DNA of 64,000 bases, taken from assembly GCF_002563925.1 (NCBI RefSeq), contig NZ_PDJD01000001.1:2610973-2674972 (forward strand), written 5' to 3'. The DNA comes from Serinibacter salmoneus (GTDB lineage: Bacteria; Actinomycetota; Actinomycetes; Actinomycetales; Beutenbergiaceae). The notes beneath the pieces were generated by a model. The model did not search any database. It saw only the letters and a program-made list of their open reading frames with translations, and was not told where the DNA came from. This document shows positions 3,838-64,000 of this stretch, one piece after another (position 1 is the first letter of the stretch; each line of letters opens with the position of its first letter). Both the position numbers and the translations under genes were made by a program.

Positions 3838-5106
3838 GTGAGCACCACCCCCGTCACCACCGCGTCCCAGTCCCCCGCCACCACGCCCGACTCCGCCTTC
3901 GACGCCGCCGCCTTCGACGCCGCCGCCGTCGACGCGCTGACCGCGGCCGAGCTCCGCGCCCGCGGCTCGATGAAGTGGACGGCGTTCCCCGACACCATCG
4001 GCGCCTGGGTCGCGGAGATGGACTTCCCGCTCGCCGCGCCCGTGGCGGACGCCCTGCAGGAGGCCGTCACCGCTCCCCGCCTGGGGTACCTGCCACCCGC
4101 CGTCGTCGCCGACACCAAGGCGGAGTGCGCCGCCTGGTACCGCCGCACGACCGGGTGGGAGGTGACCGAGGACCAGGTGTTCCTCGTGCCGGACGTGCTG
4201 ACGGCCCTGCGGGTCACCCTGGACCACGTGGCCGGCCCCGGCAGCGCCGCGGTGGTCACCACCCCCGCCTACATGCCCTTCCTGTTTCGCCCCGAGCAGG
4301 TGGGTCACCCGGTGCTCCAGGTGGCCGGCACGCAGGACGAGGAGGGCGTGTGGCGGCACGACCCCGCCGCACTCGAGGACGCCCTGACCCGGGCGCGCTC
4401 GGAGACCGGGGTGCGGCCGGTCCTGGTGCTGTGCAACCCGTGGAACCCGGTCGGCCGGGTGCTGGGGCGCGAGGAGATGCTCGAGATCGCCGAGGTGGTC
4501 GAGCGCACGGGCGCGGTGTTGTTCTCCGACGAGATCCACGCCCCGCTCACCTACGACGACGCCACGCACCTGCCGTACGCGAGCCTGAATGAGGCCACGG
4601 CGCGCCACACGATCACGGCCCTCTCGGCGTCGAAGACCTGGAACCTACCCGGGCTGAAGTGCGCACAGATCGTGGCGGCCGACCCCGAGCTGCTGGCCGC
4701 GCTTCGCCGCCCGGAGACGTTCGCCGGCCTGGAGCCGGCGACGATCGGGGCGATCGCGAACGCCGCCGCCTACCGGGACGGGGAGCCCTGGCGCGTCGGT
4801 GCGGTGGCGTACCTCACCGGGAACCGCGCGGCGTTCGCCGAGGCCGTGGCCGCGATCCCCGGGACTCGGCACACGCCGCCCGAGGGGACCTACCTGGCGT
4901 GGGTGGACCTGCGTGAGGTGGTCGGTGGCACCTCCGGGCAGGCGCTACCGGCGGACCTGGGAGCCTTCTTCCGCTCCGCCGGGGTCGCGCTCCAGGACGG
5001 CGCCGGCTGCGGCGCCCCCGGCTTCGTGCGGTTCAACCTCGCGCTGCCGCGCCCCTTGATGCGGGAGGCCGTGGCGGCCATGGCCACCGCCGTCGCCGCC
5101 CACTGA
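3838..5106 (+). CDS. PLP-dependent aminotransferase class I/II, MalY/PatB-type C-S lyase
   Basis: Cytosolic fold-type I PLP enzyme, 422 aa. The MalY/PatB family are cystathionine beta-lyases splitting C-S bonds of cystathionine or related thioethers. Diagnostic stretches are the N-terminal KWTAFPDTIGAWVAEMDFPL, the LCNPWNPVGRVL loop, SDEIHAPLTY (PLP-ring Asp) and SASKTWNLPGLKCA, in which the Lys is the Schiff-base residue. A ~25-residue Thr/Ala/Pro-rich leader precedes the domain, so the GTG at 3838 could be too early, but no better start is obvious. Monocistronic; its 3' end faces asd across a repeat array. Substrate within the family (cystathionine or another thioether) cannot be fixed from sequence. 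Confidence 0.88.
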   Translation: MSTTPVTTASQSPATTPDSAFDAAAFDAAAVDALTAAELRARGSMKWTAFPDTIGAWVAEMDFPLAAPVADALQEAVTAPRLGYLPPAVVADTKAECAAWYRRTTGWEVTEDQVFLVPDVLTALRVTLDHVAGPGSAAVVTTPAYMPFLFRPEQVGHPVLQVAGTQDEEGVWRHDPAALEDALTRARSETGVRPVLVLCNPWNPVGRVLGREEMLEIAEVVERTGAVLFSDEIHAPLTYDDATHLPYASLNEATARHTITALSASKTWNLPGLKCAQIVAADPELLAALRRPETFAGLEPATIGAIANAAAYRDGEPWRVGAVAYLTGNRAAFAEAVAAIPGTRHTPPEGTYLAWVDLREVVGGTSGQALPADLGAFFRSAGVALQDGAGCGAPGFVRFNLALPRPLMREAVAAMATAVAAH

Positions 5107-5112
5107 CCCACC

Positions 5113-5190
5113 CTCCGCGAGGTGGTTCTGCAGGTACCACGAGGCGCCTGCAGAACTACCTCGCGGTGGTCGCAGAACTACCTCGCGAAG
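5113..5190. repeat. 22-bp dispersed repeat, inverted array between convergent genes
   Basis: Between the stops of the C-S lyase and asd. One unit in reverse orientation (5113-5134, core CGCGAGGTGGTTCTGCAGG), a truncated half unit (5135-5146), then two units in forward orientation (5147-5168 and 5169-5190, core GCAGAACTACCTCGCG). The opposed units could pair as a stem-loop and act as a bidirectional terminator. Locus-specific bases are AACTACC, unlike the other arrays. Confidence 0.85.
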
Positions 5191-5228
5191 GGTTCAGGGA
5201 TGCCTCGCGGAGATGGAGACGAGCGGGG

Positions 5229-15606: not shown

Positions 15607-15705
15607 CGCTTCAGGGTAGCCGGGGACACCGACATGCAGGCCGAGCGGCGTCGAACGAACGACTGCGGACCGGCGCAGGCCGATCGGGTCGACGTGCGGG
15701 CATGA

Positions 15706-15798
15706 AAGGACCCCCCGCACACCCGTCAGGGCCCACCTACCCTTGCTGCCTTCCGGCCCTGGGGGGGTTCAGCGGGATAACGCCGTACGAGGGGTCGT
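15706..15798 (-). ncRNA. ffs: Signal recognition particle RNA, small bacterial type
   Basis: Read on the minus strand the region contains the invariant SRP core CAGGGCCGGAAGGCAGCAAG followed by GGTAGGTGGGCCCTG and GGTGTGCGGGGGGTCCTTT. The 5' GACCCC (15796-15791) can pair with the 3' GGGGTC, closing a single long hairpin of about 93 nt, the 4.5S-like form. A -10-like TACGCT (15809-15804) sits seven bases before the proposed 5' end. Ends are approximate. It recruits Ffh/FtsY for cotranslational membrane targeting, and commonly neighbours dnaX in actinobacteria. Confidence 0.88.
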
Positions 15799-15870
15799 AG
15801 ACCAGCGTACCTGCTCCCGCGGGGTGCTGGGCCGATCTGGGGGCGGTCAGGGTCACCCGTTCGCGTGGGG

Positions 15871-15925: not shown

Positions 15926-16010
15926 GGAGGATTCGCCTAGTGGCCTATGGCGCACGCTTGGAAAGCGTGTTGGGTTAACGCCCTCGGGGGTTCGAATCCC
16001 CCATCCTCCG
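15926..16010 (+). tRNA. tRNA-Ser (anticodon GGA)
   Basis: 85-nt class II tRNA. Acceptor stem GGAGGAT (15926-15932) pairs with ATCCTCC (16003-16009), discriminator G at 16010. Anticodon stem CACGC/GCGTG encloses loop TTGGAAA with GGA at 15960-15962. A long variable arm (TTGGGTTAACGCCCTC) and T-arm GGGGGTTCGAATCCCCC complete a serine tRNA. CCA is not encoded. Confidence 0.97.
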
Positions 16011-17839: not shown

Positions 17840-17883
17840 CCTGCAGAACCACCTCGAAGTGCCTGCAGAACCACCTCGCGGAG
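17840..17883. repeat. 22-bp dispersed repeat, two tandem units
   Basis: Units 17840-17861 and 17862-17883, both forward (core CCTGCAGAACCACCTCG), filling the gap between the convergent ParA-like and permease genes. The first unit begins one base after the ParA stop and the second ends six bases before the permease stop. Locus-specific bases are AACCACC. Confidence 0.88.
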
Positions 17884-17889
17884 GGGGTG

Positions 17890-41849: not shown

Positions 41850-43049
41850 ATGTCCCAGCCCGAGTCGGTGACGCCGGCGTCGATCGGCATCCACGATCTC
41901 GCACTGGCGACCTCGCACTACCGGCTCGACCTCGGTGCGCTCGCCGACCACCAGGGGATCGATCCCGCGAAGTACTCGGTCGGCATCGGCCAGGACGTGA
42001 TGAGCGTGCTCGCCCCGGACGAGGACATCGTCACGATGGCCGCCGAGGCCACCGCCCGGATCCTCGAGCGCAACGGGATGGACGGCATCCGCACCCTGCT
42101 GTTCGCCACGGAGAGTGGCATCGACCAGTCGAAGTCCGCCGGCGTGTACGTGCACCAACTGGTGGGCCTGCCCGAGACCGTTCGTGTGGTCGAGTTGAAG
42201 CAGGCCTGCTACTCCGCCACGGCGGCGCTGCAGTTCGCCATCGGCCTCATCGCCCGCGACCCTTCGCAGAAGGTGCTCGTGGTCGCCTCCGACGTCGCGC
42301 GCTACGACCTGGGCTCCTCCGGGGAATCCACCCAGGGCGCCGCGGCCGCCGCGATGCTCGTCCAGGCCAACCCGGGCCTCATGGCAGTGGCGAACCCTGC
42401 GGGCGTCTTCACCCAGGACGTCATGGACTTCTGGCGCCCGAACTACCGCTCCACCGCGCTGGTGGACGGCAAGGGCTCGATCAAGGCCTACCTCAATGCC
42501 ATCGGCGGCGCCTGGACGGACTACCTGAACCAGGGCGGCGCCCCGTTCGAGTCCTTCGCCTCGATCTGCTACCACCAGCCGTTCACCAAGATGGCGAGCA
42601 AGGCGCATCGCCACCTCGCCGTGATGGCCGGCCAGAACCCCGCTCCGGCCGAGGTCGCGGACTACCTCGCCGACACGATGCGCTACAACCGGCTGATCGG
42701 GAACTCCTACACCGCCTCGGTGTACGTGGCCCTGGCCTCGCTGCTGGACACCCACGACGGCGATCTCACCGGCGCACGGGTCGGCCTGGCGAGCTACGGG
42801 TCGGGCTCGGTGGCGGAGTTCTTCGGCGGCGTCATCCAACCCGGGTACCGCGACCTGCTGCGGGTGCAGGAGCACCGCTCGATCATCGAGCGGCGGATCC
42901 CCCTGGACCACACGGCCTACGAGGTGCTGCACAAGACCACCCTTCCGGAGGACGGCCGCGAGTACCGTACGGCCGCCGAGACCACCGGACCGTTCCGGTT
43001 CGCCGGCATGGGTGAGCACATGCGCCGCTACGAGCGCACCACCGACTGA
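41850..43049 (+). CDS. Hydroxymethylglutaryl-CoA synthase
   Basis: Condenses acetyl-CoA and acetoacetyl-CoA to HMG-CoA. 399 aa from the ATG at 41850 (AAGGAG 11 bases upstream); an upstream ATG in frame lacks a ribosome site. Catalytic triad Glu88 (FATESGIDQ), Cys120 (LKQACYSATAALQ) and His242 (YHQPFTKMAS). Also SYGSGSVAEFF near the C terminus. Highly like the actinobacterial enzymes of mevalonate clusters. Together with the reductase and the thiolase nearby (43473) it supplies acetyl-CoA to mevalonate. Confidence 0.96.
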   Translation: MSQPESVTPASIGIHDLALATSHYRLDLGALADHQGIDPAKYSVGIGQDVMSVLAPDEDIVTMAAEATARILERNGMDGIRTLLFATESGIDQSKSAGVYVHQLVGLPETVRVVELKQACYSATAALQFAIGLIARDPSQKVLVVASDVARYDLGSSGESTQGAAAAAMLVQANPGLMAVANPAGVFTQDVMDFWRPNYRSTALVDGKGSIKAYLNAIGGAWTDYLNQGGAPFESFASICYHQPFTKMASKAHRHLAVMAGQNPAPAEVADYLADTMRYNRLIGNSYTASVYVALASLLDTHDGDLTGARVGLASYGSGSVAEFFGGVIQPGYRDLLRVQEHRSIIERRIPLDHTAYEVLHKTTLPEDGREYRTAAETTGPFRFAGMGEHMRRYERTTD

Positions 43050-43052
43050 CCC

Positions 43053-43096
43053 CTTCGCGAGAGGGTTCTGCAGGCACCGCGAGAGGGTTCTGCAGG
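43053..43096. repeat. 22-bp dispersed repeat, two tandem units (reverse orientation)
   Basis: Units 43053-43074 and 43075-43096, core CGCGAGAGGGTTCTGCAGG, starting four bases after the HMG-CoA synthase stop. They form the left arm of an inverted pair enclosing the dinB-like remnant. Locus-specific bases are AACCCTC (forward sense), shared with the right arm. Confidence 0.9.
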
Positions 43097-43116
43097 CCTT
43101 CTGCCACGATCGGGTC

Positions 43117-43336
43117 ATGACGAACTCGATCGAACCGGACACCAAGGACTGGACCAGTCGTGGCTGAGGAGTTGGCCGACGCGGGCCTCACGCTCGCGGC
43201 GGCCTTCGAGTCGGTGACCGAGGCGGATCACGCGCGCCGCGGCCTGCGCTCCAACGGGTCGGAGTTCACGGTGCGGACGCTGGGCCAGTACTTCTGGCAC
43301 GACGCGCACCACCATCTCCACGACGTCGGGGCGTGA
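43117..43336 (+). pseudogene. DinB-family remnant with internal deletion
   Basis: The 5' end reads MTNSIEPDTKDWTSRG then stops (TGA); SIEPDTKDWTW is the typical opening of actinobacterial DinB/mycothiol-transferase-like proteins. In another frame, from 43160, follows a C-terminal part ending SNGSEFTVRTLGQYFWHDAHHHLHDVGA and TGA at 43334-43336, the usual DinB ending. The middle of the ~180-residue protein, including most metal-ligand histidines, is gone and the frames do not match. Framed on both sides by the repeat arrays at 43053-43096 and 43337-43380. Confidence 0.8.
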
Positions 43337-43380
43337 CCTGCAGAACCCTCTCGCGGTACCTGCAGAACCCTCTCGCGCGC
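43337..43380. repeat. 22-bp dispersed repeat, two tandem units (forward orientation)
   Basis: Units 43337-43358 and 43359-43380, core CCTGCAGAACCCTCTCGCG. The array begins directly after the remnant's stop codon and is the inverse of the array at 43053-43096 (40 of 44 bases match by eye). Confidence 0.9.
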
Positions 43381-43399
43381 GATCGACCCAGCGGTGTGA

Positions 43400-63262: not shown

Positions 63263-63350
63263 CCTGCAGAATCGCCTCGCGGTACCTGCAGAACCGCCTC
63301 GCGGTACCTGCAGAACCGCCTCGCGGTACCTGCAGAACCACCTCGCGGTG
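63263..63350. repeat. 22-bp dispersed repeat, four perfect tandem units
   Basis: Exactly 88 bp = four units at 63263-63284, 63285-63306, 63307-63328 and 63329-63350, consensus CCTGCAGAACCGCCTCGCGG plus TA. Only a few bases differ between units. The last unit ends directly against the purQ stop codon. It lies between purQ and the fadD promoter. Confidence 0.95.
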
Positions 63351-64000
63351 TCAGGCGGTGGCGAGCACGGAGCGCAGCGCGGAGGTGAAGAACCCCAGGC
63401 CGTCCGTGCCGGTGCGCGGGCCCGCGGCGCCGTCCGGCCCGAACCCGGGCTCCACGGCGTGCTCCGGGTGCGGCATCAGGCCCACCACGTTCCCGCGGGC
63501 ATTGGTGATCCCAGCGATGTCGCGGCGCGACCCGTTCGGGTTCCAGCCCACGTAGCGGAACACCACGCGCCCTGACCCCTCGAGCTCGTCCAGCGTGCGC
63601 TCGTCGGCCACGTACTGCCCGTCCTGGTTCTTCAGGGGGATGGTGATCTCCTGGCCGGCGCGGAAGTCGCTGCTCCACGCGGTGCTCGCGTTCTCCACGC
63701 GCAGCACCTGGTCGCGGCACACGAAGTGCAGGTGGTCGTTCTTGATCATCGAACCGGGCAGCAGGTGCGCCTCGGTGAGCATCTGGAACCCGTTGCAGAT
63801 GCCGAGCACCGGCATGCCGGCGTTCGCGGCCTCCACGAGCGCCGTCATGACCGGGGAGAAGCGCGCGATCGCCCCGGCCCGCAGGTAGTCGCCGTAGGAG
63901 AAGCCGCCGGGCAGCACGATCGCGTCGACCCCGTGCAGATCCTCCTCGCCGTGCCACAGCGGCACCGCGGAGCCACCCGCGAGGCGAACGGCGCGCGCGG
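63351..64000 (-). CDS. purQ: Phosphoribosylformylglycinamidine synthase subunit PurQ (5' end beyond window)
   Basis: Glutaminase subunit supplying ammonia to PurL. Open from the window edge to the stop at 63351. Visible: [20 protein letters not shown], nucleophile Cys in [11 protein letters not shown], and catalytic His/Glu in [10 protein letters not shown]. The N-terminal segment [17 protein letters not shown] runs off the edge, so roughly the first 20-30 residues are missing. Not adjacent to purL (22.5-24.8 kb). Confidence 0.95.

Follow-up and report, generated by a model that had tools for sequence, protein, structure and literature searches.

Repeat units in the window

The window, as we call the whole 64-kb stretch of DNA analyzed here (G000:C1:2610973-2674972), comes from the actinobacterium Serinibacter salmoneus (G000), whose 3.27 Mb genome forms one contig with a G+C content of 71%. 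A 22-bp tandem repeat unit, GCAGAACNNCCTCGCGGTRCCT, occurs at four places in the window, arranged as five arms and one single unit. The motif GCAGAAC is found 20 times against 5.2 expected, a count reached in 0 of 100 shuffles, and 12 of the 20 copies lie inside the repeat loci. In window coordinates, the features are:

5110-5131, minus strand: single unit of the CACC type; a plus-strand gene ending at 5106 has its stop codon 3 bp from the CTCGCGG end
5150-5171 and 5172-5193, plus strand: two tandem units of the TACC type; their GCAGAAC ends point toward the minus-strand unit, with 18 bp between
17843-17864 and 17865-17886, plus strand: two tandem units of the CACC type between convergent genes, with stop codons 4 and 3 bp away
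43050-43071 and 43072-43093, minus strand: left arm, two tandem units of the CCTC type; a stop codon at 43049 lies directly before
43094-43339, no strand: segment inside the two inward arms, containing an ORF piece at 43160-43336
43340-43361 and 43362-43383, plus strand: right arm, two tandem units of the CCTC type
63266-63353, plus strand: four tandem units (TCGCC, CGCC, CGCC, CACC); the last overlaps the stop codon of the minus-strand gene 63351-63965

Flanking genes are convergent at 5 kb (an aminotransferase and a semialdehyde dehydrogenase) and at 17 kb (a ParA-type ATPase and an ABC permease). They are non-convergent at 43 kb (an HMG-CoA-synthase-like gene and a thiolase, both plus) and at 63 kb (an AMP-binding enzyme and a GATase, both minus). 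The ORF piece between the 43-kb arms encodes 58 amino acids without a Pfam match, is directly preceded by a short ORF with a stop, and resembles a fragment left over from a larger gene. The second unit of the right arm scores under the profile cut and is absent from the genome-wide unit counts given below. An Rfam scan of the window returned an ordinary small SRP RNA (15703-15799, minus) and an ordinary tRNA gene (15926-16010, plus), and nothing more.

The initial annotation proposed that the variable bases after GCAGAAC differ by locus and agree within it, even between opposite orientations. Agreement within a locus holds at 17 kb (CACC twice) and at 43 kb, where all four units are CCTC in both orientations; the 63-kb array mixes three variants, TCGCC, CGCC (twice) and CACC. 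At 5 kb the proposed agreement across orientations fails because the minus-strand unit is CACC and the plus-strand units are TACC. The facing units between convergent genes and the potential stem described there are indeed present, and this inverted site has folding z-scores of -7.7 on one strand and -7.4 on the other.

A linked nuclease-like gene

The main point, a linked nuclease-like gene together with dispersed cognate arrays, could not be seen from the window alone. Elsewhere in its chromosome, S. salmoneus carries a sole AbiEi-like/nuclease-like gene (2527156-2528061, 302 aa), enclosed by inward arms of 22-bp units. A protein search found this gene in 6 of 24 genomes of the family, as 11 match rows corresponding to 10 places. 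A period scan detected 21/22-bp arrays at all 10 of these places, on both sides of the gene at eight; at L228 and L230 the second arm was identified on reading, beyond the period scan. At three loci (L092, L190 and L208) the nuclease-like gene stands alone between the arms, with no AbiEii nucleotidyltransferase toxin beside it in that interval.

The gene and its arms share a junction in two genera. In both S. salmoneus (2526990-2528134) and G008 (1861197-1862439) the order is left gene, arm, nuclease gene, arm, right gene, and by reading, the left neighbor also lies beside the gene in G013 and G017. At the junction matching that of the G008 paralogue at 2841961, S. salmoneus has the array only, without a nuclease gene, and most arrays likewise have no adjoining nuclease gene. 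A search for empty sites in gene-less stretches returned two junctions with both neighbors, neither from a gene-less genome.

Two of the family copies are irregular. G017 carries a split copy of the nuclease-like gene (G017:C1:2590932-2591812; L235, L237), and the match in G013 (G013:C9:794503-795054; L232) spans residues 119-302 only. In both cases the arms have period 21 and an extra ORF lies between the left arm and the gene.

Co-occurrence of gene and arrays

Across genera of the family, the gene is accompanied by arrays of matching type. The 24 genomes sampled are mutually related, so they are not independent trials. A dimer pattern matched 129 times in S. salmoneus and 201 times in G008. 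A trimer pattern with a CTCTCG core matched 112 times in G006, 84 in G017 (reversed control 12), 77 in G004, 2 in G008 and 0 in the remaining 20 family genomes. These matches are overlapping pairs or triples of units, with the gene's own arms counted in. By the better of the two patterns, each of the five genomes with an intact gene has at least 77 array matches, and each of the 18 gene-less genomes, searched with patterns derived from array-bearing genomes, has 0. Allowing 2-3 mismatches gives 1-2 scattered matches in several gene-less family genomes, and likewise in some reversed-pattern controls. G013, with its partial gene, has 0 pattern matches and no array of period 20-23 in 400 kb.

An unbiased tandem scan of the gene-less genomes G010 and G005 (200 kb each) found no period-22 array, and 400 kb of G006 contained six, four of them being arms that belong to its two genes. 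One prediction succeeded: the first patterns had found no array in G006 although it carried the gene, and the CTCTCG core of its flanking arms then retrieved its 112 matches.

In G008 and G006, the paralogues are surrounded by different kinds of arm. G008 has at least 255 units at 56 or more loci (from 40 stretches) and two array types, A (GCnnAAnCCCCTCGCCGGTGGT) and B (CCnGAAGGGCCTCGCGACCGGA), both present at 5 of 56 loci. Type A surrounds the gene at 2841961-2842863 and type B the gene at 1861416-1862321, and a third gene (2906943-2907851) has a third arm type. In G006, where types were read by eye, a GGCCAC type surrounds 1992084-1992989 and a GCGCA(G/C) type 1939322-1940227. Both array types are also dispersed in G008 and, among the matches listed, in G006. 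The protein tree groups the paralogues within G008 (A/B, 98/99) and within G006 (a/b, 97/95); the types of array thus show no simple correspondence with the tree. Over the first 80 residues, the S. salmoneus protein is nearer to G008 A (71%, with similar arms) than to B (60%), a single post-hoc comparison that we leave outside the evidence.

The best reading of this association is a system laid out like the REP repeats and their RAYT genes and built on an unrelated nuclease. Gene and arrays are observed together; that the arrays are mobile is what we infer from their arrangement.

Homologues beyond the family

Homologues in other families show a looser form of the same layout. A protein search of 386 genomes from the order gave matches at E <= 1e-20 in 33, including 27 that belong to other families; six candidates were scored per genome, so rows per genome are lower bounds. 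From 38 outside-family rows we took 24 loci, of which two lack a full flank. At 19 of the remaining 22, an exact inverted word of at least 14 bp is shared across the 400-bp flanks, compared with 52 of 4000 controls (maximum 16); at L239, L241 and L253 the words measure 12, 10 and 13 bp. By the same test only 4 of 10 family rows reach 14 bp, because the arms there have diverged. Tandem arrays lie near the gene at 5 of the 24 outside-family loci, with units of 18 bp (L241, L244), 26 bp (L252), 16 bp (L256) and 19 bp (L261).

Dispersal also extends beyond the family. In 160 kb of G024 the arm motif GTGATCATGCA has at least 20 copies: six next to the gene and another 14 in five clusters away from it. 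Across 240 kb of G027 there are nine copies of the arm motif, seven next to the gene and two forming one inverted pair elsewhere. No arm motif of the GTGATCATGCA type occurs in 800 kb of G006, G010 and G005. Around the nuclease-like genes of G027 (L307) and G024 (L314-L321), these repeats form irregular arrays with a spacing of ~31-38 bp, and the copies elsewhere are partly inverted pairs.

The tandem pattern itself was also sought beyond the family. It occurs in 0 of 372 non-family genomes of the order sample and in 3 of 396 overall, all of them family members, and in a phylum sample of 396 it is found in S. salmoneus alone. In a collection of named genomes it picked out three stretches, from Miniimonas arenae (same family), Rhodococcus spongiicola and a Chloroflexi MAG. 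The latter two (L127/L226 and L125) each have a 22-bp array at one locus, with a comparable core (GCACAACGACCTCGCG and GCGGAACGGCCTCGCG), and no nuclease homologue lies inside the examined stretch of either. We treat both as possible chance occurrences.

Placement, polarity and folding of the arrays

Arrays are numerous in S. salmoneus and sit mainly at gene ends. A profile scan of the stretches around genome-wide matches gave 193 scored units, distributed over 53 loci with at least two units each; both counts are lower bounds, because diverged units miss the profile cut and loci with weak matches may be absent. Conservation is highest at unit positions 1-6 (GCAGAA) and 11-14 (CTCG), the last five positions are variable, and the unit that terminates an arm at its CTCG end carries a tail of its own. 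Arrays occur throughout the chromosome except for a region of ~0.67 Mb, at about 0.90-1.57 Mb of G000:C1, in which none was found. As a separate observation, the 20-base sequence GCTGAACCGCCTCGCGGCCG is identical at G000:C1 289286, 744296, 746036, 2806527 and 2809396, lies outside any array at 289286, and perhaps marks a repeated gene.

Gene contexts, assigned with a simple codon-bias gene caller, place 28 of the 53 loci between convergent genes, 21 between codirectional genes, 2 between divergent genes and 2 in a predicted ORF, compared with 7 convergent pairs among the 49 neighboring gene pairs of the window. Both orientations share a junction at 8 of the 53 loci, so that the inversion between convergent genes proposed in the initial annotation stands for the 5-kb site and is not the rule. 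Of the S. salmoneus arms, 47 of 56 point their CTCG end toward the 3' end of a gene (median gap 2 bp, 32 at <=15 bp), as do 47 of 71 in G008 (median 7 bp, 29 at <=15 bp). For the opposite arm end the corresponding counts are 39 of 56 and 45 of 71, at greater distance (medians 23 and 60 bp). A few loci are reversed, with CTCG ends meeting centrally 2-4 bp apart, and in some solo arms the other end points toward the stop codon. Closely consecutive arms form inward pairs in 22 of 26 cases in G008 and in 5 of 9 in S. salmoneus. The gaps inside the G008 pairs are 10-24 bp or about 1-2.3 kb, and the longer pairs enclose single ordinary-looking genes.

This placement is what would be expected if the arrays were 3' elements of genes, kept for RNA reasons such as termination or mRNA stability, with the nuclease gene incidental. 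The tight stop-codon polarity and the excess of convergent junctions favor that explanation, as does the strong folding of the eight inverted loci (z -2.2 to -19). Folding is modest, however, at the 45 of 53 single-orientation loci (mean z -1.8 and -2.1 on the two strands, with 22 and 21 of 45 below -2). Single units have z of about -1.5 in S. salmoneus, where CACC-GCGA-GGTG could pair, and show no signal in G008 (mean z -0.5 to -0.1). Since G008 units lack a folding signal, we dropped a conserved RNA hairpin, including a GNRA-loop RNA family, as the defining feature. A role at the RNA level also leaves unexplained why arrays flank the gene at 10 of 10 family places and are absent where the gene is absent, and we consider it improbable, though the strongest of the alternatives.

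The protein and its possible roles

The protein combines an AbiEi-like N-terminal part with a nuclease-like C-terminal half. PADLOC AbiEi models matched three of three proteins (best E 5.6e-15); in Pfam, PF13338 (E 2.7e-6 in the S. salmoneus protein) and PF09407 each exceeded the cut-off in one of seven proteins. The restriction-endonuclease-like models MTES_1575 and DUF559 match the C-terminal half weakly, under curated cut-offs, in all seven. These weak matches and an E..D..EYDG..H pattern suggest the Vsr/DUF559-like PD-(D/E)XK nuclease fold class. Residues E197, D228, E239, D241 and H246 (S. salmoneus numbering) are invariant in 21 of 21 aligned homologues with 32-63% identity to the S. salmoneus protein, and such conservation of acidic residues suggests a working nuclease.

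One spurious weak match aside, the seven proteins scanned matched only AbiEi and restriction-endonuclease-like Pfam models, with no Y1/HUH domain among them. No transposase of a known family was recognized by Pfam (seven proteins) or by NCBIfam, which gave no match at all for the two proteins scanned. The search of solved structures returned no relative (best E = 1.1), and plasmid and viral collections, where a mobile gene might be expected, held no homologue.

The N-terminal matches raise the possibility that the protein is an AbiEi-type repressor, the repeats its operators and the dispersed arrays its regulon, with no movement involved. PADLOC's three of three AbiEi matches fit such a role, and PMC7319586 describes AbiEi repressors that bind to 23-bp repeats located in their own promoter. 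Against it, the arrays sit mainly at gene 3' ends and flank the nuclease-like gene on either side, and just 2 of the 53 S. salmoneus loci lie at divergent junctions. With the invariant acidic residues of the C-terminal half also suggesting a working nuclease, we regard pure repression as distinctly unlikely.

A third explanation keeps the nuclease and replaces transposition with homing: a Vsr-like enzyme would cut arm-free gene ends, and repair would copy the arm into them by allelic gene conversion. A Vsr-like class of homing endonucleases exists, and the junction common to S. salmoneus and G008, with the same left neighbor by reading in G013 and G017, fits such a drive. Allelic conversion does not by itself place arms at unrelated junctions or around ordinary genes as inward pairs (22 of 26 in G008), for which ectopic spread is needed. 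We give this drive about the same slim chance as repression.

Homogenization within arms

Units cluster by locus across the genome. In S. salmoneus, mean unit identity is 0.845 within loci and 0.801 between them, and 0.927 and 0.857 when the terminal unit of each arm is left out. The excess recurs in G008 for all units (0.793 versus 0.662), for type B (0.850 versus 0.767) and for type A (0.824 versus 0.792). Each of these five differences was matched in 0 of 2000 permutations, bearing out over the 193 units and 53 loci of S. salmoneus the clustering foreseen in the initial annotation.

Homogenization acts inside an arm, not between inverted arms. At the eight S. salmoneus loci with opposite orientations at one junction, cross-orientation identity is 0.901 and the mean under permutation 0.900 (844 of 2000 permutations). 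Opposite arms of one G008 junction show no excess likeness either (type A, 515 of 3000 permutations; type B, 2582 of 3000); a cross-arm excess over all G008 loci (0 of 2000) was due to the two array types and is gone within type. The two orientations at a junction thus resemble each other no more than do arms from separate junctions, and these permutations reject, in both genomes, gene conversion between arms of opposite orientation and with it any general agreement across orientations. Of the two processes that the initial annotation offered, local gene conversion or slippage, tandem duplication by slippage or unequal exchange within a single-orientation arm fits the data. Plain slippage from chance seeds, with a coincidental gene link, predicts exactly this homogenization within and not between arms, but it is highly improbable as a full account, given the core and period common to 53 unrelated loci, the fixed stop-codon polarity and the 10 of 10 flanked gene places.

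A proposed mechanism and its consequences

We propose that the arrays are the dispersed cis part, and the AbiEi-like PD-(D/E)XK (Vsr/DUF559-like) nuclease-like gene the trans part, of one system. The winged-helix AbiEi-like part would bind one 22-bp unit per monomer, and the nuclease part would cut at or next to the arms. Break repair or transposition-like copying could then deliver arms to gene ends, either singly or in inward pairs. Arms would grow, and their units become alike, through slippage or unequal exchange between the units, perhaps initiated by cutting. For this explanation as a whole, mechanism included, we estimate a probability of roughly 57%.

A broader formulation is more tentative, and we rate it somewhat below even odds. 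It holds that these genes and arrays constitute a new class of mobile repeat spanning several families of the order, in which an AbiEi-Vsr-type nuclease would recognize the units of its own arms and spread the arms chromosome-wide to gene 3' ends. Unit length (16, 18, 19, 21, 22 or 26 bp) and sequence would co-evolve with the N-terminal DNA-binding part, making the system an analogue of REP/RAYT based on an unrelated enzyme. A literature search, with most subscription papers and preprints beyond its scope, found no paper linking such a gene and such arrays.

If the proposal is true, proteins at present classed as orphan AbiEi antitoxins or as nucleases of unknown function would be makers or movers of interspersed repeats. 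The origin and spread of REP-like repeats would have a second, unrelated answer, and hundreds of intergenic repeats in actinobacterial genomes could be explained. The two or more repeat-enzyme specificities within single genomes (G008, G006) would permit a direct test of nuclease-repeat co-evolution.

Comparison with known systems

Several known elements share single features with this system. Insertion sequences and transposons also have inverted repeats at both gene ends; the present proteins differ in matching no transposase of a known family (Pfam, seven proteins; NCBIfam, two). Tn7-type ends contain several 22-bp TnsB sites, and so resemble the arms in carrying inward-facing repeats of a short site, comparable in length, at either end. 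Unlike Tn7, the present arms have no Tns gene found between them, and hundreds of units occur without a core element. Vsr-like homing endonucleases would share the nuclease fold class, as suggested by the sub-cut-off Vsr/DUF559 matches and the E..D..EYDG..H pattern; we know of no homing endonuclease that forms arrays. STAR and MIRU-type repeats are intergenic tandem direct repeats of variable unit number, and the present arrays are likewise intergenic, tandem and direct; to our knowledge, no linked gene is flanked by such repeats.

The N-terminal part resembles the AbiEi antitoxin of the AbiE type IV toxin-antitoxin system. PMC7319586 describes AbiEi proteins that bind 23-bp repeats, near the 22-bp unit in length, with all four repeats of one promoter occupied at once. 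The present protein differs in its nuclease-like C-terminal half, and its repeats lie on both sides of the gene as well as dispersed; a single gene lies inside the arms at L092, L190 and L208.

In organization the system resembles REP/RAYT. REPs and BIMEs, as set out in PMC3733652, are many dispersed extragenic repeats, mainly downstream of genes and often in inverted pairs, with a gene flanked by the same repeats. The same source describes CGTC-tagged REPs, mainly alpha-proteobacterial, as dispersed palindromic dimers with an unpaired CGTC end. That description sets them apart from the present units, which share their dispersal; since they are said there to lack a dedicated transposase, the question of a partner enzyme arises for them too. 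Like REP/RAYT, the present gene is flanked by inverted copies of a dispersed repeat (10 of 10 family places), and the arrays are extragenic and mainly downstream of genes, with 2 of 53 S. salmoneus loci in a predicted ORF. Unlike REP/RAYT, the protein has no Y1/HUH match (Pfam, seven proteins), and the 22-bp unit is tandem, with no conserved palindrome and no GTAG tag in its consensus. Without a Y1 domain or palindrome, these repeats fall outside REP/RAYT, and the likeness lies in layout and habit. The gene-linked repeat set may be a mobile repeat system of a previously undescribed kind.
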